A stretch of DNA of 64,000 nt from Chloroflexota bacterium (GTDB lineage: Bacteria; Chloroflexota; Anaerolineae; Anaerolineales; Villigracilaceae): assembly GCA_016235425.1 (NCBI GenBank), contig JACRLC010000094.1, forward strand, positions 1 through 64,000. Reading direction: 5' to 3'. Under the pieces are notes generated by a model. It was given only the letters and a program-made list of their open reading frames with translations, made no database searches and was not told the origin of the DNA. How positions within the stretch are numbered: position 1 is the first letter of the stretch; every line of letters starts with the position of its first letter. This document shows, piece after piece, positions 51,555 to 62,788 of the stretch. A program made the position numbers and the translations under genes.

Positions 51555-52049
51555 ATGAAAAAGACAGTTTTGATTATTGCGTTGGTTGTGCTGGCCCTTG
51601 GTGTATTTGGGGTTGGTGCCGCCTTCGCTCAAGGTGGACAGCCCCCGGTTGGCGGTGGATATGGCCCGATGATGCAGGATGGCACCGGCTACCTGCACAC
51701 GTACATGGTCGAAGCGTTTGCCGCCAAGGTCGGCCTTACGACAGATGAAGTCAACACCCGAATTGCCGCGGGCGAGTCAATGTACAATATCGCGATTGCC
51801 GAAGGCGTTGCCGTGGCAGATTTCCCCGCTTTGATGACCGAAGTCCGCACGGCGGCTGTGGATGCGGCTGTGAAAGACGGCGTCATCACCCAGGAACAGG
51901 CCGATTGGATGAAGTCACGCGGTTTTGGCCGCGGCGGCATGATGTATGGCGCCGGCTATGACGGGACCTGCCCGATGTACGGAACCGGCCAGGCCGGACA
52001 GCGCGTACCCGGCATGATGGGCGGCCGCTGGCAGAATCAAAATCCGTAA
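51555..52049 (+). CDS. Secreted helical protein with Gly/Met-rich tail
   Basis: 164 aa. Signal peptide MKKTVLIIALVVLALGVFGV... cleaved near AFA-QGG. The middle (about 45-125) holds two helical segments with VGLTTDEVNTRIAAGESMYN and DGVITQEQADWMKSR, like the DUF2680/YckD-type or metal-resistance periplasmic helical proteins. The tail (GRGGMMYGAGYDGTCPMYGT) is rich in Gly and Met and has one Cys, which could bind copper or another soft metal (inference). AAAAGGAG precedes the ATG. It has its own leader, with TTTACA-17-TTGTAT as a weak promoter and a TCAGG-GTAAA-CCTGA palindrome at about 51514, and a strong terminator after it. Confidence 0.8.
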   Translation: MKKTVLIIALVVLALGVFGVGAAFAQGGQPPVGGGYGPMMQDGTGYLHTYMVEAFAAKVGLTTDEVNTRIAAGESMYNIAIAEGVAVADFPALMTEVRTAAVDAAVKDGVITQEQADWMKSRGFGRGGMMYGAGYDGTCPMYGTGQAGQRVPGMMGGRWQNQNP

Positions 52050-52135: not shown

Positions 52136-53071
52136 TTAGTGAACGTGATTCACTTCCGTAATATCGCAATACAGCAAATTTGACTCACATCCTTCGCATT
52201 CGAGTTGTAATGTTGCGTGCCGAATATCATACTTGCGGGCAAGCACTTGATTCAAGTCCCGTTGAATCAGCGTTCCTGTGCTGATGGAAGTATCCTGCGT
52301 GACGATGTGCGCTGAGAGCACTCGCAGGTTTTCACTGATGCTCCACACGTGCAGGTCGTGGACATCCAGCACACCGTCCACGTTGCGGAGGTCGGTGAGC
52401 AATTTGTCCACGTCAATGTTTTCGGGGGTGCTTTCGAGCAGGATGTGAATGGTCTGGCGCAGGATGCCCCACGCGTTCCAGAGAATGAGGAGGCCAATCA
52501 GGACGCTGACGAGCGGGTCGAGCCAGTTCCATTTCGTGAAGGCGATGACAATTCCCGCCGCGACCGCGCCAAGTGTGGATAGCACATCGCCCATGAGATG
52601 CAGAAATGTGCTCCGCAGGTTCAGGTCATGCTCACTGCCGCGCTGGACGAGCCAGGCTGTGCCCGCGTTGATGAAAAATGCGACGATGCCGACGCCAATC
52701 AGAATCGGCGCATCCACCTCGGGTGGGGAGATGAAGCGGCGCCATGCTTCGTAGAAAATGCCGAGGGAAATCGAAACAAGCGTTGTCGAGTTGACAAGGG
52801 CAACGAGAATCCCTACGCGGTGATAACCGTAGGTCTTGCCTGCGTGCGCGGGTTGCAGGGCAATCTTCAACGCATACCAGCTCAGACCGAGCGCAATCAC
52901 GTCGGTGAAGTTGTGCGCCGCGTCGGTCAGAAGAGCAAGGCTATTTCCGATGAATCCTGCGACAAGCTCGACCACGACAAACGCGAGCGTGAACGCGAGT
53001 GAGATGGCAAGTCGTTTTGTGGCTTTTATGGCTAACTCTCCAAAGTGAGAATGAGGGTGGTTTGATGACAT
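52136..53071 (-). CDS. Cation diffusion facilitator (CzcD/ZitB-like)
   Basis: 311 aa from ATG 53071. Proton-coupled exporter of Zn, Co, Mn or Fe. Six helices with the two metal-site motifs DAAHNFTD (helix 2) and HLMGDVLS (helix 5), and the cytoplasmic dimerisation domain (DVHDLHVWSISENLRVLSAH). His-rich N-terminus NHPHSHFGE. HxxxD in both sites favours zinc over manganese. It is the last gene of the metal island; a repeat element separates it from the FeoB membrane gene. Confidence 0.92.
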   Translation of the reverse strand: MSSNHPHSHFGELAIKATKRLAISLAFTLAFVVVELVAGFIGNSLALLTDAAHNFTDVIALGLSWYALKIALQPAHAGKTYGYHRVGILVALVNSTTLVSISLGIFYEAWRRFISPPEVDAPILIGVGIVAFFINAGTAWLVQRGSEHDLNLRSTFLHLMGDVLSTLGAVAAGIVIAFTKWNWLDPLVSVLIGLLILWNAWGILRQTIHILLESTPENIDVDKLLTDLRNVDGVLDVHDLHVWSISENLRVLSAHIVTQDTSISTGTLIQRDLNQVLARKYDIRHATLQLECEGCESNLLYCDITEVNHVH

Positions 53072-53080
53072 AGTTAACTC

Positions 53081-53150
53081 GGAGTCCAACGTCTCCAGAC
53101 GTTGGACCTGGTTTGTGCGACCTCCCCAAAATCTGGAGATTTTGGACTCC
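53081..53150. repeat. GGAGTCcaa...ttgGACTCC paired hairpin element
   Basis: GGAGTCCAACGTCTCCAGAC with GTTGGAC, then CCAAAATCTGGAGATTTTGG and ACTCC. Same family as 10441 and 61562. Confidence 0.8.
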
Positions 53151-53161
53151 TTGGCTTTATT

Positions 53162-54562
53162 TTACGCCCAACCTAGTGAACGGGCGATGGTTGCTGTCAG
53201 GAACGTCACCAAAAACGCCGTTCCTAATGTAATCACGACGCTAATCGTTGCCCATTTCAAGGATTTGGTTTCTTTATAAATTGTCATGATAGTGGTCGCA
53301 CATGGATTGTGCAACAGCGCGAACAACATCAAGTTGACCGCAGTGAGCATTGTCCAGCCGTGTGCGCCGACGAGCAGGCTGTGAATTGCGTCGGTGGTGG
53401 ACGGCCCATCAATCATCATGCCTGCGCCCATGTAAACCATCATCATGGTGGGGACGACGATTTCATTGGCAGGGATGGCGATGATGTAGGCGAGAATGAT
53501 CACACCGTCGAGTCCCAGTAAGAGGCCAAAGGGGTTGAGCCAGTCTGCGATGGCGGCGGCCAGGTTCGAGGTCCCGAAAGGAACGTTGGCCAGAATCCAG
53601 ATAAGCGCGCCCGCGGGGGCGGCGGTCTGCATGGCGCGCCAGAGAACGAAGATGGTTCGGTCAATCAGCGATGTGTACAAAATGCGGCTGATGTTCGGGC
53701 GGCGATATGGTGGAAGTTCAAGCGTGAATGCGGATGCTTCGCCCTTCAAAACTGTTTTGGACAAAAGCCATGACATGAGCAATGTGAAGAAGACGCCGAT
53801 CAACACCACGCCGACAACTGTTGAGGCGGCGATGAGGGAGGTCAACGCTGGAGGAAAGGACGCGGCGACGAAGACGGCGGCAAGCATGATCAGGGTCGGG
53901 AAGCGTCCGTTGCAGGGGACGAAGTTGTTGGTGAGGATGGCTATCAGCCGTTCGCGCGGCGAGTCGATGATGCGAGTCGCAACAACACCCGCCGCATTAC
54001 AGCCGAATCCCATTGCCATCGTCAGGGACTGTTTTCCGTGCGCGCCTGCTTTGCGATACAGCCAGTCGAGGTTGAAGGCGACACGGGGCAGGTAGCCGAG
54101 GTCTTCGAGGATGGTGAAGGCGGGGAAGAATATTGCCATCGGCGGGAGCATCACACTGATGACCCAGGCGAGGCCGCGATAGACGCCGTCCCAGATGAAG
54201 CCGGTAATCCACCACGGAATGTTGAGTGAACTGAAGAGTGCATTGCCCCAATCGCCAAACGCAAAAAGGATGTTTGCGATGGCGTCGGATGCGACGTTTG
54301 CGCCGGAGACTGTCAGCCAGATGATGATGGATAAAAGAACCACCATGATGGGCAGGCCGACAATCGGCGAGGTGACGAGACGGTCTATCCTCTGGTCGAG
54401 GTCGTATTTTTTGTCCTTTGCAGTTTTGACCGCGCGCCGCGCGATGTTTTCCGCTTCGGTGTAAAGTGATTTGACGATTTCGTCGCGGAAACCTGTGGAA
54501 AGGTTGCCGCGTAAAGTTTCTGCTTTGGCCAGGACTTCGTTGGGTTGGATGTTTGTTGTCAT
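53162..54562 (-). CDS. feoB: FeoB membrane (Gate) half
   Basis: 466 aa. The channel part of ferrous-iron transporter FeoB with two Gate blocks: MAMGFGCNAAGVVATRIIDS with NNFVPCNGRFPTLIML (first core), and the second core near IPANEIVVPTMMM. No GTPase domain; the first 75 residues are soluble. The GTPase is encoded separately upstream (54766). ATG 54562 lies 203 bases from it across a repeat. The Cys residues in the G-x-C-N and P-C-N-G motifs are present, as in functional FeoB. The two polypeptides presumably assemble. Confidence 0.9.
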   Translation of the reverse strand: MTTNIQPNEVLAKAETLRGNLSTGFRDEIVKSLYTEAENIARRAVKTAKDKKYDLDQRIDRLVTSPIVGLPIMVVLLSIIIWLTVSGANVASDAIANILFAFGDWGNALFSSLNIPWWITGFIWDGVYRGLAWVISVMLPPMAIFFPAFTILEDLGYLPRVAFNLDWLYRKAGAHGKQSLTMAMGFGCNAAGVVATRIIDSPRERLIAILTNNFVPCNGRFPTLIMLAAVFVAASFPPALTSLIAASTVVGVVLIGVFFTLLMSWLLSKTVLKGEASAFTLELPPYRRPNISRILYTSLIDRTIFVLWRAMQTAAPAGALIWILANVPFGTSNLAAAIADWLNPFGLLLGLDGVIILAYIIAIPANEIVVPTMMMVYMGAGMMIDGPSTTDAIHSLLVGAHGWTMLTAVNLMLFALLHNPCATTIMTIYKETKSLKWATISVVITLGTAFLVTFLTATIARSLGWA

Positions 54563-54765: not shown

Positions 54766-55602
54766 TTATTGCCTTCCTTCTACCGACATCTTCCTCGAAA
54801 ACTGCGCATCCGCCCTCTGCTGACGCGCCACGCGTTGACCGAGTTCACCAGACATCAACGCCTGTTGTACTTTCGCGTCGCCGTCCAGCAAGCGGATTGC
54901 CAGCCAGCGGGCGTTGGGGACGCCGGGCGCGGCCTGTTCGATCATGGGCACAAGTTCGTTCACGGCTTTCTGGAATTCGGGTGTGCCTTCGACGCGCATG
55001 GGTTTGGTGGTTACGTTGCCTTGAATGACATCCGCGACAGTGGAAAGTAAGGTGGATATGCCTTCACCTGTCCGTGCGGTGACGGGGATGGCAGGGATGC
55101 CGAGGTCGCGGGCGAGGGAACGCGTATCCACTTCCATGCCTTTGCGGCGGGCCTCGTCCATGAGATTGACCGCTACGACGACTTTGTCGGTAATCTCCAT
55201 CACTTGCATAACGAGGTTGAGATTGCGCTCCAGCGCGGTCGCGTCGGTGACCACGATGGTGCAATCGGGCTGGCCGAACAGGATAAAGTCGCGGGCGACT
55301 TCCTCATCCTGTGAAGCGGACAAAAGCGAATACGTTCCAGGCAAATCCACTATTTTGTAGCGGACGCCGTTGAATTGATATCCGCCTTCCGCGCGCGTGA
55401 CGGTCTTGCCCGGCCAGTTGCCGGTGTGTTGCTTGAGTCCAGTCAACGCGTTGAAGAGTGTGGACTTGCCCGTGTTTGGGTTGCCCGCAAGCGCAACCAC
55501 GCGGTCGTATTTATCGAGTTTGATTCCCATCTGCTCCAGTTCCGCGTACGCGGGGCAGGTTTCGCAGTGTTCGGTGGGGGGTTGTTTTTTGTTTTCGGTC
55601 AT
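54766..55602 (-). CDS. feoB: FeoB GTPase half
   Basis: 278 aa from ATG 55602 (GAGGA six bases upstream; ATG 55620 also possible). G1 GNPNTGKST, G2 region NWPGKTVTRAEG, G3 DLPGTYSL, G4 NLMDEA (instead of the usual NMxDE), G5 near TARTGEG. A helical GDI-like segment follows (about 190-265). The N-terminal CETCPAY adds two Cys residues not found in classical FeoB. It ends where the membrane part would begin, so transporter and switch are separate proteins. It is flanked by inverted copies of one repeat. Confidence 0.92.
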   Translation of the reverse strand: MTENKKQPPTEHCETCPAYAELEQMGIKLDKYDRVVALAGNPNTGKSTLFNALTGLKQHTGNWPGKTVTRAEGGYQFNGVRYKIVDLPGTYSLLSASQDEEVARDFILFGQPDCTIVVTDATALERNLNLVMQVMEITDKVVVAVNLMDEARRKGMEVDTRSLARDLGIPAIPVTARTGEGISTLLSTVADVIQGNVTTKPMRVEGTPEFQKAVNELVPMIEQAAPGVPNARWLAIRLLDGDAKVQQALMSGELGQRVARQQRADAQFSRKMSVEGRQ

Positions 55603-55620
55603 GTAATCCTCGTTTATCAT

Positions 55621-55726: not shown

Positions 55727-56323
55727 CTAAAACTTCAATCGCGGCAGATACCTGCCCGTCCGTTTCATGTACTCGCGATACTCATCGCCGAATTTTTTGA
55801 TGAGATGTGTTTCCTCGTTCGGCGTGCGTACATCGAGCAGGATGAAACCCAGAATCGAGAGCAAAACCATAAACCAGGAATCGGCTATCAGACCAAGCGA
55901 AAGAAAAGCCAGCGTGCCGAACGTGTAAAGCGGATGTCGAATCCAACGATAGGGACCGCTTGTTGAAAGTTTATGTTCTCTTCGAGTGGCTACCGTCGGC
56001 GAAATGCCTGTGCCAATGCTTTTGAACATCCACGTAATCAAACCCAGGCTTGCCACGCCGATGCCAATGCCAATCCAACGCACCCAACCGGGCAGTCCCA
56101 TTTTTGACCAAGCCATCCACGCGGGAACGATTGTGTAAATGAGCGGGCTGAACCAAAGCAGCAACCCGCCAAGGCGGAGCGCCAGAAATATCGGCCTGCC
56201 TTCATCTTTCATTGAAACCTTCTCGCCTGATTCCCTATCTGCCTTGTGGCGGAAATATCCTGAGATGGTGATGGCAGACAAGAGAATGACGGCGCTAAAA
56301 ATGCGAAAAATGTTTTCGTTCAT
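55727..56323 (-). CDS. Isoprenylcysteine carboxyl methyltransferase-like membrane protein
   Basis: 198 aa, about five helices. The C-terminal half has the family block GPYRWIRHPLYTFGTLAFL and RTPNEETHLIKKFGDEYREY, which bind S-adenosylmethionine in ICMT/PEMT enzymes. Bacterial members probably methylate lipids or isoprenoid compounds; the substrate is unknown. It lies inside the metal island between the DtxR-FeoA gene and FeoB, but repeats separate it on both sides, so a metal role is not implied. Confidence 0.85.
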   Translation of the reverse strand: MNENIFRIFSAVILLSAITISGYFRHKADRESGEKVSMKDEGRPIFLALRLGGLLLWFSPLIYTIVPAWMAWSKMGLPGWVRWIGIGIGVASLGLITWMFKSIGTGISPTVATRREHKLSTSGPYRWIRHPLYTFGTLAFLSLGLIADSWFMVLLSILGFILLDVRTPNEETHLIKKFGDEYREYMKRTGRYLPRLKF

Positions 56324-56421: not shown

Positions 56422-57423
56422 TTAATTCACGGGCTTCACCCAAATTTGCGAAGCCTGGTCTTTCCTCAACGCAATCAACGTGCCGCGCACGCGGTAGGCA
56501 CGCGGATCGCCGAAGAAATTTTGCAGTTCAGGATAAATCAACGTTCCAGGGGTGAGGCCCAAATCCAAAAAGCGGCGGCGCGTGAATCCCTGCACCGCGT
56601 CATCGAGCGTGACAATTTCAGCGCGCTGGTTGTAAGTCAACTCAGCCAGCGAAACCGCCCGCGCCCGCGCAACCACACTTTCGGGCAGTGGCGCGACGCT
56701 GATATTCGCGGCAACAGTTGGGGCAAGGCGGTATTCGTGTTCTCCATCGCTCAAAACGAATCTCTGCGAGGTCTTTTCGATAATGCGGATGACCTGGCCC
56801 AGGCGGAGTCCGGCCGCAAGGATTTGTTCATACGCTATGGCAGGCTCATCTTCGATATGCACGATTCGCGCGAGGCCCTCAACCTGCCACGCCGTAACGG
56901 GCATTGACTGGACCGACGGCATTTTCCCCTCACGCGTTGGGATGGGATCTCCGTGCGGGTCGCGCGTTGGATGACCGAGCGCGGCGTCGAGTTCGTCGAG
57001 TTGTGCGTCGGTGAGATTGTGTTCGCGATGGTGCGCCTCTTTGTGGATGTTCTTCAACGGCATACGCGCCTCGTCAACGAGATAGCGTTCCCACAAACGA
57101 TGCGCGCGGACAACGTGCAATGCCCAGCGTTCGCCTTCCACGGTGAGATGCAATTCGGAGCCGCGCGTCTCGAGCAGGTTCTGGGATTCCATGTCAGCGA
57201 TGAGACGGGTCACTTTAACGCGATGCAGGTCTAAGGTCCCAGCCAAAGATTCGGGCGAGGCGTGGCGGCCTTGTGACTCTCGGTCAAGTAAATGCTTGAG
57301 AGCGTCCTCAACCTGTTCGCGTTGACGGGCGACTCGCCAATCCTTATAAAGCGAGAGTATTCCGTAACGCGGGACGAAAATTACGATGGCGAGAGCGATT
57401 AGGAGAAGGAGTGATGGTGTCAT
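56422..57423 (-). CDS. Membrane-anchored DtxR-family regulator fused to FeoA-like domains
   Basis: 333 aa from ATG 57423 (AGAGG upstream). One N-terminal helix (TPSLLLLIALAIVIFVPRYG) is followed by a basic linker and a DtxR winged helix (about 35-95: SPESLAGTLDLHRVKVTRLI). The DtxR dimerisation/metal domain follows (about 98-160; RAHRLWERYLVDEA, HKEAHHREH, GHPTRDPHGDPIP). Two SH3/FeoA-like domains complete it (about 165-240 and 248-333); the second closely resembles FeoA (ELTYNQRAEIVTL, RRRFLDLGLTPGTLI, YRVRGTLIALRKDQA). A DNA-binding iron sensor tied to the membrane and carrying FeoA modules next to a split FeoB is very unusual. Confidence 0.85.
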   Translation of the reverse strand: MTPSLLLLIALAIVIFVPRYGILSLYKDWRVARQREQVEDALKHLLDRESQGRHASPESLAGTLDLHRVKVTRLIADMESQNLLETRGSELHLTVEGERWALHVVRAHRLWERYLVDEARMPLKNIHKEAHHREHNLTDAQLDELDAALGHPTRDPHGDPIPTREGKMPSVQSMPVTAWQVEGLARIVHIEDEPAIAYEQILAAGLRLGQVIRIIEKTSQRFVLSDGEHEYRLAPTVAANISVAPLPESVVARARAVSLAELTYNQRAEIVTLDDAVQGFTRRRFLDLGLTPGTLIYPELQNFFGDPRAYRVRGTLIALRKDQASQIWVKPVN

Positions 57424-57437
57424 AGTGCCTCTTTCTT

Positions 57438-57489
57438 GTACTGCGGCATTCATGTCGCCGCACCAAATGCGACATGAATGCCGCAGTAC
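57438..57489. repeat. Perfect 21-bp stem hairpin between the two DtxR genes
   Basis: GTACTGCGGCATTCATGTCG(C) at 57438-57458 pairs without mismatch with 57469-57489; 10-base loop. It fills most of the 65-bp spacer between the DtxR stop and the SD of the DtxR-FeoA gene. No T run follows. Confidence 0.9.
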
Positions 57490-58157
57490 TAATTTATTTC
57501 CACAAAAACCTTGCTGGTGATGGGCAAGCCAAGTACGTTGGACTTGCTCCCGATTTTGATGGTGATGTTGTGGTCGAATTGCGAATGGCCAGTCACCTCG
57601 ATTTGCGCGCCGGGGACGAGGCCAAGGCCGACGAGATGACGCAGGAAGGCAGGATCTTCTCCGTTGACGCGGACGATGGCGCCGCGTTGGGTGGGGCGCA
57701 ACGCCGAGAGCGGTTGTGACTTATCGGTAGGCATAATGAGATTCTCGGTGGGGATGAGGTCGCCGTGCGGGTCGCGGATGGGGTTGCCGAGCGCGGCCGC
57801 GATGCGCCGCTCGAAATCCTCCGAGATGACATGTTCGAGGCGGCAGGCTTCCTCATGGACTTCGTCCCATGAATAGCCAAGCGTTTGCACAAGCCACGTT
57901 TCGAGCAGGCGGTGATGACGAATGACTTCGAGTGCGTTCTTCTTCCCTGCGGCGGTGAGGGTGACGCCCTGATGTTTGTGATATTCCACCAGCGCAGGTT
58001 TGGCTGAAGCGAGTTTTTGCACCATGCCGGTCACGGATGCGGGCTTGATGTCCAGCCGCCGGGCGAGGTCGTTCGTGCTGGCGGGCGCGCCGTTTTTGGT
58101 CAGGTCGTAGATGTGTTTGAGATAGTCTTGAATGGATGTGGTGACTTGTTGGTTCAT
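57489..58157 (-). CDS. DtxR/MntR family metal-dependent repressor
   Basis: 222 aa from ATG 58157, which overlaps the ZIP stop (ATGA). Winged helix (about 20-62: ASTNDLARRLDIKPASVTGM), metal-binding dimer domain (about 65-140: HHRLLETWLVQTLGYSWDEV, HEEACRLEHVISEDFERR, GNPIRDPHGDLIP) and a C-terminal SH3/FeoA-like domain (about 150-222). The H-E-C/E-H pattern (EACRLEH) is typical of IdeR/DtxR primary sites, where Cys favours iron and Asp favours manganese. It probably binds the palindrome at 60472 and controls this island. Confidence 0.93.
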   Translation of the reverse strand: MNQQVTTSIQDYLKHIYDLTKNGAPASTNDLARRLDIKPASVTGMVQKLASAKPALVEYHKHQGVTLTAAGKKNALEVIRHHRLLETWLVQTLGYSWDEVHEEACRLEHVISEDFERRIAAALGNPIRDPHGDLIPTENLIMPTDKSQPLSALRPTQRGAIVRVNGEDPAFLRHLVGLGLVPGAQIEVTGHSQFDHNITIKIGSKSNVLGLPITSKVFVEIN

Positions 58158-59335
58158 TTGATAAGCAATCCCGTCACCCAAAGCAGCATCATGCCGGTCA
58201 GCACGCCGGAGAAAACAGTGAACGGTATGGATTGTTTGTCGGCGTCCCTTTGGATGAGCTTGGCGATTTCGTAAATGACCTCAAAAATGGCGCCCGCGCC
58301 GATGGCGAGGAATAGCACTGCGAGAAACGGCGATGGGGTGTATCCGCCGATCCACGCGCCGAGGATGGCCGGGCCGCCGCCGATGAGTCCCATGACCGCC
58401 AGCCTGCCGAAGCTGGGTTTATCTCGCAGCACGGGGGCGATGATGCCGAGTCCCTCGGTGATGTTTTGGATGATAAAACCGACGACGAGGAACGTACCGA
58501 GCCCAATCTCGCCAACGTTATACGCCGCGCCGATGGCGAGTCCCTCGCCGAGATTGTGGAAGCCGATGCCGACGGCAATCATGGATGCGATTGCAAGTCG
58601 GCGGTCGCTTTCGCTGCCGGTAATTTCGGTCTGTCGTTTCGAGATGGCGTCGAGGAGCAAAAACGTCGCCACCGCGCCGATGCCGATCAGCCCGATGCCT
58701 TGAAAGGAAGCAGGCACTTCGTTTGCAAATTCCAATGCTTCGGCCAGTGTATCCAAGCCGAGGAAGACGAGCAATCCCGCGGTCGCGGCCATGAGGAAGG
58801 TCATGGTGCGTCGGCCAAGTTGGCGCAAAGCTGGGAACCAGAAGATGCCCAGAAAAACGGGAATCACGCCGACGTACAATCCGATCAACGTGAAGCCCCA
58901 GAAGGTTCTGCCCGTCGGCTGCGGCGTTGTGAATGCGACGGGAATCTCGCCGTTGAATGCAATTGCATTGCTGGAAAACATTGTCACCGCGTAGGCCTCG
59001 CCGTAAACCCAGTGATAATCGAGGTGAACGACGGCTTTGCCGAGCCGCGGAATCGTCGGACTCGGCTCCACGCTGAACGGCCACACCGCGGCATTGATGA
59101 CAACCTGGGAAATGGTCACATCTTCGGGGCCTGTGTTGCGGACGTGGAGGTCGATGCTTTTGGGATGGAGGACGTACCGTTCAATCGCGAGACTTTCGAC
59201 GGGCGCGGCGGAATCGAGGGTCAATCCGCCGCCCGTGGAGAGGAAGAGCGCGATCACTCCAGCGAGGAGAATGATTGGGAGCAGAAGCAGGCCGAAAGTC
59301 TGAAAAGAGAGGCGGGTGATTGTCGGTTGAGTCAT
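58154..59335 (-). CDS. ZIP family metal transporter with N-terminal extracellular domain
   Basis: 393 aa. After a first helix (LLLLPIILLAGVIALFL) there is an external beta domain of about 90 residues (ESLAIERYVLHPKSIDLHVR ... FSVEPSPTIPRLGKAVVHLD), unusual for ZIP proteins. Eight ZIP helices follow with metal-site motifs GFHNLGEGLAIGAAY (helix IV) and NITEGLGIIAP (helix V). ZupT-like importers carry Zn, Fe or Mn inward. TGA overlaps the DtxR ATG. A long inverted repeat lies before the start. Confidence 0.9.
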   Translation of the reverse strand: MTQPTITRLSFQTFGLLLLPIILLAGVIALFLSTGGGLTLDSAAPVESLAIERYVLHPKSIDLHVRNTGPEDVTISQVVINAAVWPFSVEPSPTIPRLGKAVVHLDYHWVYGEAYAVTMFSSNAIAFNGEIPVAFTTPQPTGRTFWGFTLIGLYVGVIPVFLGIFWFPALRQLGRRTMTFLMAATAGLLVFLGLDTLAEALEFANEVPASFQGIGLIGIGAVATFLLLDAISKRQTEITGSESDRRLAIASMIAVGIGFHNLGEGLAIGAAYNVGEIGLGTFLVVGFIIQNITEGLGIIAPVLRDKPSFGRLAVMGLIGGGPAILGAWIGGYTPSPFLAVLFLAIGAGAIFEVIYEIAKLIQRDADKQSIPFTVFSGVLTGMMLLWVTGLLIK

Positions 59336-59417: not shown

Positions 59418-60446
59418 TTATTCCGTCACATCGAACATGCCGTTCCAGCCCAGTTCCGCAAATTCCGTCACGTGAGCGTGGAACATGTACATGCCAGGAT
59501 ATTTGTAACTGAATTCGAGAATGCCGCGTTGAGCCTGTCCTTGAATGACCGTGTCGGTGTATTCGGCGGGCGTGAGGCTCGTGCCCGTGGGGTAGTAGTT
59601 GAAAAAATTGGCGTGAAGATGAAAGGAATTGAGCAGGTCGAACTCGAGGATGTTGACGAGATAGATGCGAACCGTCTCGCCGACCTTGATCGGGATGGGG
59701 CGATTTTGATAATGGAACGGAATCGCGTTGACCGCATAAAAATCATTCTCGTCGTCGAAGTCCACGTCGAAGCCGCTCATCACCATGACGAATTCATGGT
59801 CAACGCGCGGACGGCCTCCCGGCGGATCCACAATGAACGCGCCGTACAGTCCTTTGGCAATGTGACGCGCGAGCGGGAAGGCGTGACAATGATACAGGTG
59901 CAGACCGAATGGCTCGGCGTCGAATTCATAAGTGAATGATTGGCCCGGCTCCACGAGTCCGCCTGGGCCTGAGCCCGGGACGCCGTCCATCACGCCGGGG
60001 TGAAAGCCGTGAAAGTGCATGGTGTGCGGATGGTCGCTTCCGTTCGAGAAGTTGATGCGGATGCGGTCGCCTTCGGTTGCGCGAATAGTCGGGCCAGGGA
60101 TGCGGCCGTTGTACGTCCACGCGGGGAAGGTGATACCAGGCGCAACTTCGATATCCTTGTTGAGCGAGGTGATGTTATATTCGCGCAAAGTCTGTCCATT
60201 TGGCAAAGTTGAGACTTCGCCATAATCAAAATCTGTAAGGGTGTCGGTCGGGTTGAAGCCATTTTTCTCGTGGTCAACTTCACCTGTGCCAGGGCCTTCG
60301 GTGTGTCCGTGTTGAGATGGCGCGTGATGTTGTTCGTGGTTGTGCGGCTTTGCATTGACCTGTGTCATCGCGGTCGCGCCCGCCGCGCCCACAAGTGCAA
60401 GTCCGCCGACTTTGAGAAAGTCTCTTCGGGATATGGGTTTCATCAT
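59418..60446 (-). CDS. Two-domain multicopper oxidase, Tat-exported
   Basis: 342 aa. The N-terminus has a Tat motif (SRRDFLK) and hydrophobic stretch, then a His-rich segment (KPHNHEQHHAPSQHGH). Two cupredoxin domains: HTMHFHG and HLYHCHAFPLARHI in the first, FHLHANFF and MFHAHVTEF in the second. The type 1 copper Cys occurs only in domain 1 (HCH), so it fits two-domain MCOs with T1 copper in the first domain; these act as trimers. Candidate role: cuprous or ferrous iron oxidation at the cell surface, matching its place at the head of a metal operon. AAGGAT precedes the ATG pair at 60446/60443. Confidence 0.9.
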   Translation of the reverse strand: MMKPISRRDFLKVGGLALVGAAGATAMTQVNAKPHNHEQHHAPSQHGHTEGPGTGEVDHEKNGFNPTDTLTDFDYGEVSTLPNGQTLREYNITSLNKDIEVAPGITFPAWTYNGRIPGPTIRATEGDRIRINFSNGSDHPHTMHFHGFHPGVMDGVPGSGPGGLVEPGQSFTYEFDAEPFGLHLYHCHAFPLARHIAKGLYGAFIVDPPGGRPRVDHEFVMVMSGFDVDFDDENDFYAVNAIPFHYQNRPIPIKVGETVRIYLVNILEFDLLNSFHLHANFFNYYPTGTSLTPAEYTDTVIQGQAQRGILEFSYKYPGMYMFHAHVTEFAELGWNGMFDVTE

Positions 60447-60471: not shown

Positions 60472-60491
60472 AATTTAGGTATACCTAAATT
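60472..60491. promoter_or_regulatory. DtxR-like palindromic operator
   Basis: AATTTAGGTATACCTAAATT is a perfect 20-bp palindrome. The TTAGGT...ACCTAA halves match the DtxR/IdeR half-site. Imperfect symmetry extends outwards (GTCTAAAGTAA against TTATTTTAGTC). It lies 25 bases before the oxidase ATG, next to TTGACT (minus strand, about 60502-60497), so binding would block that promoter. Confidence 0.8.
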
Positions 60492-61702: not shown

Positions 61703-61848
61703 CGTCTCCTGATACTGCTTCCGAAAAATGCAATCACCAAAAAGGGAATGGCGATGTAGAAATACACGTCCTGGTTTGTGACCCAGCCGATGGTGAAAAA
61801 GACGATGCCGAGAATCATGAAAATGGGGATGAGGCGTTTATTTTTCAC
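61693..61848 (-). CDS. Small two-helix membrane protein
   Basis: 51 aa from a GTG at 61848 that overlaps the stop of the nucleotidyltransferase gene (GTGA); a TTG at 61875 is the alternative. Two hydrophobic segments (LIPIFMILGIVFFTIGWV and VYFYIAIPFLVIAFFG) and a basic tail (SSIRRRKK). No family recognised. Its coupling to the AbiEii-like gene suggests one operon. Confidence 0.6.
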   Translation of the reverse strand: MKNKRLIPIFMILGIVFFTIGWVTNQDVYFYIAIPFLVIAFFGSSIRRRKK

Positions 61849-62480
61849 TGCTTGATTTGTAGTTCCTTTACCCAATTTTGGATTGTTTTCTTTATGTCAG
61901 TCCATTTGACATCCCAGAGCATGGTGGGCATGCGTTCGGACTCGGCGTCATCAAAATAGGTCAATCCATATAAAACAGGGCTTACATCAACCGAGAATTT
62001 TTGCTTGTAGATGTTCAACATTTCGCTTAATGGACGATGTTTAGTCCCCAAGACATAGACGTCGCAAAAGTCCTTGCGCGCTCCACGCTGGGCAACCGCC
62101 GATAGTTTCATGCAGGTAATATCATCAAGGGAGGCAAGATTGCAATCCATATCCTGCCACAAGGTAAGCGAATCAAGAAGTGGGTAGTTGAATTCAAGTA
62201 ACGTAACTCTGACTCCGTCAATTGTTCCATGCAATGTCCCTGGTGCTGTTTGTTCGGTTTTGAAGTTCAAGCCGAAATCGCGCAGAGATTGTGCCAGAAT
62301 GAGTGCGTCATCAATTTTGTTTGACGTGAACCAGTCGAAATCAACCGAAACGCGGTGTCCGAAATAAATTGAAAGGGCGGTTCCTCCCGCGAGATAAAAA
62401 CCGTTCTTTTTCAGGAAAACACCAGATTTCTTTAGAACTTCAATTTGTTTTTTTTCCAGCCCGTCTGTATAAAATTTCAT
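61845..62480 (-). CDS. AbiEii/AbiGii-type nucleotidyltransferase (toxin-like)
   Basis: 211 aa from ATG 62480, which overlaps the preceding stop (ATGA). The polymerase-beta fold core is FYLAGGTALSIYFGHRVSVDFDWF: GG(T) and the D-F-D acidic pair of nucleotidyltransferases (about 28-51). CMKLSAVAQRGARKDFCDVYVL is the second family block (KxxAxxxRxxxKDxxD). Members add nucleotides to tRNA or protein targets as toxins of type IV systems. The start is conserved (FYTDGLEKKQIEVLKK). Encoded with a DUF6922-like partner. Confidence 0.88.
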   Translation of the reverse strand: MKFYTDGLEKKQIEVLKKSGVFLKKNGFYLAGGTALSIYFGHRVSVDFDWFTSNKIDDALILAQSLRDFGLNFKTEQTAPGTLHGTIDGVRVTLLEFNYPLLDSLTLWQDMDCNLASLDDITCMKLSAVAQRGARKDFCDVYVLGTKHRPLSEMLNIYKQKFSVDVSPVLYGLTYFDDAESERMPTMLWDVKWTDIKKTIQNWVKELQIKQ

Positions 62481-62788
62481 TTTTGCCCCCAGGGATTTTT
62501 CTTTGCCGCTTCGACCCACGCGTCAACTGTTTTTCCGGGTAAATCGAGAATCAAAGCCCAGAATCTTAATTGGCGAGGAGACAGCCCGCGACCCTTGTGG
62601 CTTACAATCCACTTCCGCAGGGTCTTATCTTCCATTTGTCCGCGAAGCCAGGTAATGGATTCCCAATTCCCGACCGATAATATTCGACGAATAATGAGGT
62701 CACGGTCTGTTTGCCACGATAATTCCGTGAAGGGATAATCCCAAAAACAGGCTTGCAAATTATCCGGCAGGTGGATTTGTGTTGTCAT
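62477..62788 (-). CDS. DUF6922-like protein, probable antitoxin partner
   Basis: 103 aa from ATG 62788. LPDNLQACFWDYPFTELSWQ, RDLIIRRILSVGNWESITWL and SHKGRGLSPRQLRFWALILD are the blocks of the DUF6922-type proteins that commonly precede AbiEii-like nucleotidyltransferases. Helix-rich and soluble; the RQLRFWALILDLP segment could be a DNA-binding helix. ATGA overlap with the toxin-like gene. An antitoxin or repressor role is inference from gene order. Confidence 0.8.
   Translation of the reverse strand: MTTQIHLPDNLQACFWDYPFTELSWQTDRDLIIRRILSVGNWESITWLRGQMEDKTLRKWIVSHKGRGLSPRQLRFWALILDLPGKTVDAWVEAAKKNPWGQK

Follow-up and report, generated by a model that had tools for sequence, protein, structure and literature searches.

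How is a protein to be understood that joins a membrane helix, a DtxR-type metal sensor and a FeoA domain in a single chain, and that is encoded upstream of the genes for FeoB? Such a protein, here called P0001, is encoded in the window, by which we mean the whole stretch of 64,000 nucleotides of Chloroflexota DNA analysed in this study. A preliminary description of this locus had seen in it a membrane-bound sensor that touches both DNA and the FeoB channel and thereby links transport activity to transcription. Our analyses lead to a different reading, in which P0001 is probably an accessory subunit of the Feo system built from a DtxR protein, and not a DtxR repressor. A widespread natural fusion between FeoA and a sensor provides a direct handle on the role of FeoA and on the shut-off of FeoB at iron sufficiency; naming such genes transcriptional regulators by their DtxR domain may mislead.

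Domain architecture of P0001

The gene and the parts of its product are located as follows.

56422..57423, minus strand: membrane-anchored DtxR-SH3-FeoA protein P0001, 333 aa (open reading frame, Pfam, alignment, AlphaFold model)
57364..57423, minus strand: N-terminal hydrophobic helix, residues 1-20, predicted N-out/C-in anchor (hydrophobicity; helix 3-16 in the model)
56935..57318, minus strand: winged helix plus metal-binding/dimerisation domain, residues 36-163 (degenerate at the DNA-contact positions, conserved at the metal ligands)
56686..56907, minus strand: first SH3/FeoA-like domain, residues 173-246, equivalent to the usual third domain of DtxR (profile, alignment, structural superposition)
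56431..56655, minus strand: C-terminal FeoA domain, residues 257-331 (Pfam)

An alternative in-frame ATG lies 30 bases upstream of the start used here and would add 10 amino acids. Two stretches of P0001 are matched by the Pfam FeoA model. The C-terminal one (residues 257-331), previously noticed as a close match, is a true FeoA domain (4.8e-21; 75 bits against a curated cut-off of 23), and the first one (about residues 173-246) is weak by profile, with 21.8-22.3 bits against the same cut-off of 23. Residues 94-163 match Fe_dep_repr_C (5.5e-23); the winged helix gave no match to its own Pfam model, PF01325, at E<=1 and was recognized by the structure model alone. In the AlphaFold monomer (mean pLDDT 90.7, pTM 0.70), residues 37-246 superpose on full-length MntR 5zr6_B with a Z of 23.5 and 1.7 Å over 206 residues. 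Judged by the Pfam matches and this superposition, P0001 contains all three domains of the DtxR/MntR fold, preceded by an extra membrane helix and followed by an extra FeoA domain, and the architecture originally proposed, a single protein comprising an N-terminal membrane helix, DtxR and two FeoA/SH3 domains, was borne out.

In the first SH3 domain, the motif H189-x-E-D-E-P was invariant in the 29 rows of alignment A1, and would be located close to the ancillary-ligand region of the DtxR SH3 domain. The whole sequence of P0001 contains no cysteine, none of its five Pfam matches at E<=1 is to a FeoC family, and a viral fold search produced no useful match.

A conserved membrane anchor

The best 19-residue Kyte-Doolittle mean at the N-terminus of P0001 was 2.52, with lysine or arginine residues (K/R) after the hydrophobic stretch and none before it. 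Across 31 Chloroflexota rows (that of the window and 30 others), with start codons of our own choice, every row reached an N-terminal 19-residue mean of 1.69-2.75; K/R were absent before the stretch in 30 of the 31, a single one being found in L045, and 3-8 K/R were present within 25 residues counted from the end of the stretch. Because K/R follow rather than precede the hydrophobic stretch, the positive-inside rule predicts that the DtxR and FeoA parts are cytosolic. An exported protein bearing a signal peptide was also considered and was rejected, as this distribution of charges fits a cytosolic C-terminus. In the AlphaFold model, the membrane helix (residues 3-16) is followed by a single unbroken helix (residues 22-50) bearing the ligand D40.

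A genome scan with P0001 returned at least 577 relatives, the best 80 of which were retained for analysis. Within these, an in-frame hydrophobic N-terminal stretch was read by eye in 77 of 79 readable loci, the exceptions being L100 and L138, where the membrane helix is absent in frame; L086, a cut locus, is excluded from the 79. A hydrophobic N-terminus missing from homologues, which the preliminary description had named as evidence against itself, was thus looked for, and the helix proved to be conserved both in the 30 other Chloroflexota rows and in these loci.

P0001 occupies the FeoA position of one FeoB subfamily

In the window, FeoB is encoded downstream of P0001 by two separate genes.

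55727..56323, minus strand: ICMT/PEMT-like membrane methyltransferase, separating the sensor gene from that of the FeoB GTPase (Pfam)
54766..55620, minus strand: FeoB GTPase half P0003, separate gene, 284 aa (Pfam, locus scan)
53162..54562, minus strand: FeoB membrane half P0004, separate gene, 466 aa (Pfam, locus scan)

The gene of P0001 and its counterparts in relatives are hereafter called sensor genes, and operon structure was deduced from gene order. The FeoB GTPase part was encoded 3' of the sensor gene on the same strand in 109 of 111 loci scanned, some of which overlap, and no more than 250 bp away in 108; the remaining loci, L064 and L084, end inside the sensor gene. The distance is 802 bp in the window and 688 bp in L038, with an ICMT-like gene in between.

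Sensor and FeoB membrane half were compared over the same genome draws, at fixed E-values. All 53 sensor carriers among 745 genomes (400 Chloroflexota and 345 Bacteroidota) possess this FeoB subfamily, which was present without the sensor in 13 of the 745. A stand-alone FeoA of about 77-90 aa was encoded directly upstream of the GTPase part in 10 of these 13 sensor-free genomes (L198-L207); 11 were inspected, including G746, which is cut by a contig end, and the distant fused forms of G086 and G399 were left out. Of the 111 loci, just two (L045 and L109) had a free FeoA alongside the sensor, each time next to another FeoB. The sensor gene is found upstream beside a feoB that has no other feoA, the ICMT-like gene intervening in the window. 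Since stand-alone FeoA fills the slot where the sensor is missing, we conclude that the C-terminal domain is the FeoA of this FeoB system, fused to a membrane DtxR, and this exchange of sensor and stand-alone FeoA constitutes the strongest evidence for that identity. The coupling of a FeoA function to FeoB, as put forward in the preliminary description, is upheld by the tight gene link and by the stand-alone FeoA in all 10 readable sensor-free loci with this FeoB.

Conservation of metal ligands and of DNA-contact positions

The membrane form was aligned with the soluble DtxR of the same loci, in 19 loci from Chloroflexota and 27 loci from other phyla, and the 13 DNA-contact positions were taken from the IdeR list in a passage of PMC8464063. 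Entropy at these positions was 2.09 bits in the membrane form versus 1.10 in the soluble DtxR in the 19 Chloroflexota loci, and 2.63 versus 1.64 bits in the 27 others, the remaining winged helix being nearly alike in both forms (1.12 bits in the soluble versus 1.23 in the membrane form, and 1.71 versus 1.98 bits, respectively). Random sets of winged-helix positions matched the excess of the membrane form in 139 and 293 of 20,000 draws for the 19- and 27-locus sets. The DNA-contact residues in the recognition helix and wing of DtxR repressors are not conserved in the membrane form. Similarly, the mean net charge of DtxR positions 24-64 passes from +4.05 in the soluble to -1.05 in the membrane form (19 loci) and from +2.59 to -1.11 (27 loci), single membrane-form rows ranging from -6 to +6, with some staying positive.

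The six metal ligands (DtxR positions 10, 79, 83, 98, 105 and 106) had mean entropies of 0.00 and 0.04 bits in the membrane form, being invariant in all 19 Chloroflexota rows and, save for position 10 (26 of 27), in all rows of the other phyla; the DtxR metal domain recognized earlier has accordingly retained its metal sites. At the seventh ligand position, Cys102 in DtxR, the Chloroflexota rows vary among H, Q, E, D and S, with H the commonest (12 of 19); the other phyla mostly have E there (24 of 27). Because this ligand varies, the primary metal site may be altered in Chloroflexota. The D40 of P0001 and the E at position 102 in other phyla are MntR-like traits, and the metal sensed would be Fe2+ or Mn2+.

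These patterns suggest that the membrane form has retained metal sensing and has largely lost the DNA-reading surface. A lack of conserved DNA-contact residues, which the preliminary description itself had regarded as telling against its proposal, is largely what the entropies revealed. The idea that the protein touches DNA, coupling transport to transcription, consequently found no support, and DNA binding appears unlikely given the variable contact positions and the net negative winged helix. Degenerate helices are nevertheless no proof of lost DNA binding, because IdeR Q43A binds the consensus like the wild type and P39G still binds DNA, as reported in passages of PMC8464063.

A putative operator and the soluble DtxR

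The sensor gene belongs to a minus-strand run of genes that extends, behind a putative operator, from a multicopper oxidase through a CDF gene.

60474..60489, plus strand: putative DtxR/MntR-type operator TTTAGGTATACCTAAA, a perfect palindrome (pattern search; head of the minus-strand gene run)
59418..60446, minus strand: multicopper oxidase, whose gene opens the run next to the operator (profile match)
58154..59335, minus strand: ZIP-like metal transporter (sub-threshold Pfam match, 31.8 bits against 35.1)
57489..58157, minus strand: soluble DtxR/MntR-like regulator P0002, recognition helix conserved (Pfam, alignment, entropy)
52136..53089, minus strand: CDF cation efflux transporter, downstream on the same strand (Pfam)

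With two mismatches allowed, operator matches were unremarkable in the window, as 39 of 100 shuffles had as many; the exact TTTAGGN4CCTAAA occurs once in the 5.0 Mb genome. In 24 of 106 loci, the 3.5 kb upstream of the sensor gene contain the box TTTAG[AG]N4[CT]CTAAA, which the other 82 lack there and which has no occurrence in 689,079 bp downstream of the sensor genes of the 106 loci; two reversed-pattern controls gave no matches. Where the soluble DtxR is not adjacent, all eight genomes tested encode one elsewhere, with the helix PASV[ST]GM or AASVTGM, and four of these eight carry the same kind of box just upstream of the unlinked soluble DtxR gene. Considering the recurring operator, the conserved helix of the soluble protein and the variable helix of the membrane form, the operator is likely read by the soluble DtxR rather than by the membrane form, with P0002 as the likely transcriptional regulator.

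Taxonomic spread and phylogeny

According to record titles, the best 80 of at least 577 relatives belong to Chloroflexota, Acidobacteriota, Planctomycetota, Gemmatimonadota, Verrucomicrobiota, Calditrichota, Ignavibacteria, Bacteroidota and Myxococcales, plus one Balneolales, and relatives of P0001 thus span at least nine phyla by such titles. The architecture is not a product of chance, since a long homologue of P0001 is held by 18 of 41 genomes of the relatives' set (its own genome included). The distribution of the family is patchy: at E<=1e-30 it turned up in 16 of the 400 Chloroflexota genomes sampled, and full-length matches at E<=1e-90 were counted by us in 37 of the 345 from Bacteroidota. 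The sampled loci are the closest relatives of P0001, and divergent members may differ. In a tree of hand-picked sequences, obtained by a quick search without bootstrap, the 45 membrane forms made up one side of a single branch (SH-aLRT 100), with the 31 soluble forms on the other. An Ignavibacteriales contig encodes, downstream of FeoB genes, a second and weaker relative with 28% identity to P0001 residues 8-243 (L151:11708-12418).

A proposed membrane subunit of FeoB and alternative explanations

We consider it reasonably probable that P0001 is the membrane-anchored FeoA subunit of a particular FeoB, equipped with a DtxR/MntR metal-sensing module that controls import, with the soluble DtxR controlling transcription. 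Computation supplied the architecture, the FeoA slot, the grouping of membrane forms, the conservation of metal ligands, the degeneration of the DNA face and the operator. That P0001 docks on FeoB, which metal it binds, in which direction it acts on import and that it does so post-translationally are inferred. The FeoA domain of P0001 would dock on the FeoB GTPase, and cytosolic Fe2+ or Mn2+ would occupy the conserved sites of the DtxR core. In response to the metal, the first SH3 domain would dock and helix alpha-1, which runs back to the membrane helix, would move; as the unbroken helix 22-50 of the model carries D40 and extends back towards the membrane helix, metal binding could tug at the membrane anchor and shift the SH3-FeoA pair, altering the engagement of FeoA with the GTPase. 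Import would be slowed or stopped when metal is sufficient, and the soluble DtxR would constitute the transcriptional half, acting via the operator at the operon head. Metal-dependent control of FeoB by P0001 is proposed because of this linkage between helix, D40 and membrane and because of the effect of FeoA on NFeoB, the FeoA of B. fragilis being described in PMC8980893, in the passages available, as stabilising GTP-bound NFeoB. As a tentative, if plausible, extension, a DtxR/MntR repressor might have been converted once, anciently, into a FeoB membrane subunit that throttles the channel by its fused FeoA, with transcription kept by the soluble DtxR, in at least nine phyla. If true, this would be a case of a family of transcription factors giving rise to a transporter subunit, and a single transporter would be governed at two levels by a pair of related sensors from the same family.

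Other explanations have to account for the same evidence. The GTPase and membrane halves of FeoB have separate genes in the window, as they do in 61 of 73 readable loci (among the best 80 of at least 577 relatives), and the GTPase half stays beside the sensor gene even when the membrane half is elsewhere in the genome (G075 and G295), as expected of a mere scaffold whose membrane helix and FeoA would keep the GTPase half near the membrane half and offset the split, with the DtxR core as spacer or dimeriser. Such a splint seemed universal at first and was downgraded: FeoB is fused in frame next to the same sensor protein in 12 of the 73 loci, in G393 the sensor accompanies a fused FeoB of 690 aa, and at nine loci a split FeoB occurs with free FeoA and no sensor. 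Because the split is not universal, free FeoA accompanies split FeoB and membrane halves may be separated, a plain splint role is insufficient; a spacer, furthermore, would need no near-invariant metal ligands, and we regard this explanation as unlikely.

Quite unlikely, too, is a membrane-tethered transcription factor that would bind DNA from the membrane and link the state of FeoB to transcription, like one-component membrane regulators. The model does contain a complete DtxR fold including the winged helix, an operator exists upstream, and DNA binding is described, in passages of PMC4805248, for PgMntR, which likewise has the two SH3/FeoA domains. However, the DNA contacts are variable and the winged helix is on average net negative, beside a soluble DtxR from the same loci that is better conserved and positive; all eight tested genomes without an adjacent soluble DtxR possess one; and an unbroken helix runs into alpha-1 in the model, an intact N-terminal helix being presumed, in a passage of PMC10317159, to clash with DNA in DtxR. 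We find it very improbable that P0001 is a metal buffer or chaperone at the channel mouth, its DtxR sites taking Fe2+ or Mn2+ from the FeoB pore and handing it on without regulating transport. Conserved metal sites are indeed kept at the membrane beside the channel, but DtxR-type metal sites are known as switches. The fused FeoA is, moreover, of the type that partners the GTPase in B. fragilis, as stated in part of PMC8980893.

Comparison with described systems

Read as a metal-sensing subunit of FeoB, P0001 resembles several known proteins in part. The nearest one described in the literature searched is PgMntR from Porphyromonas gingivalis, which, in the passages of PMC4805248, shares the DtxR/MntR core, the two C-terminal SH3/FeoA domains and a FeoB in the operon; that FeoB is FeoB2, a Mn2+ transporter, and PgMntR binds Mn2+ and Fe2+. 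Compared by the same description, PgMntR differs in that its predicted DNA-binding domain starts at residue 13, it was purified as a highly soluble protein, no membrane helix is mentioned for it there and it binds its promoter DNA, whereas P0001 has a conserved membrane helix, an apparently degenerate DNA face and a FeoB that is usually split.

Stand-alone FeoA occupies the same slot upstream of the same FeoB and belongs to the same domain family as the C-terminus of P0001, but is about 75-90 aa long, cytosolic and devoid of a metal-sensing module. Among the five clamp positions of BfFeoA given in a passage of PMC8980893, four are hydrophobic in P0001 (F285, L288, I317 and L319), the fifth being T281. 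In the FeoAB fusions of Bacteroides mentioned in that source, FeoA is fused to Feo machinery as in P0001, the partner being FeoB there and a membrane DtxR here; a survey of FeoA fusions left DtxR-FeoA proteins aside, as worded in the same passages (PMC8980893). The repressors IdeR, DtxR and MntR have in common with P0001 the fold of residues 37-246 on MntR 5zr6_B and the retained metal ligands, and P0001 departs from them in its membrane helix, additional FeoA domain and degenerate DNA contacts.

FeoC is a winged-helix protein. It provides a parallel in the way of working, as a small protein acting on FeoB itself: in passages of PMC10710835 and PMC8749426, it interacts with NFeoB and had earlier been suggested to be a transcription factor or to sense iron. 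Unlike FeoC, P0001 has no FeoC profile match and no cysteine, and is a membrane-bound, FeoA-fused protein with a DtxR-type sensor.

Full-text searches covering the titles, abstract starts and passages of the top-ranked matches, subscription papers being outside their scope, found no membrane DtxR-FeoA protein and, within the same scope, no description of a FeoB divided into two genes; the 'split' reported for H. pylori concerns the operon and not FeoB, in the wording of a passage of PMC10353542. New with respect to the literature searched are how broad the family is, the conservation of its membrane helix, the degeneration of its DNA face and its exchange with stand-alone FeoA in the slot.

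Traits of the FeoB subfamily and neighbouring genes

In 72 of 78 readable loci, the GTPase half (54766-55620 in the window, and its relatives) has an N-terminal CxxC some 27 residues ahead of the P-loop, a possible metal or redox site that was not seen in the five canonical FeoB N-termini compared. The membrane half (53162-54562 and relatives) displays the pore motifs GCNAAG, CNGR[FWY]PT and ANEI[VI], which differ from those of five canonical FeoBs of carrier genomes, and a fold search with it matched no solved structure. The genome of the window harbours a second system, in which a free FeoA gene is directly followed by a FeoB with a longer frame (G000:C40:49600-50276), and eight carrier genomes from several phyla each have at least one further FeoB in a long frame of 678-762 codons. 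The second FeoB of carriers suggests a division of labour or of metal.

ICMT/PEMT-like genes occur in or beside the operon in many Chloroflexota loci (e.g. L038, L048, L052, L081 and L084), sometimes in two or three copies. Two further genes of the window were annotated.

61845-62519, minus strand: AbiEii-like nucleotidyltransferase of the type IV toxin-antitoxin class (46.7 bits)
51555-52049: small protein, hydrophobic at its N-terminus (weak sub-threshold DUF2680 match)
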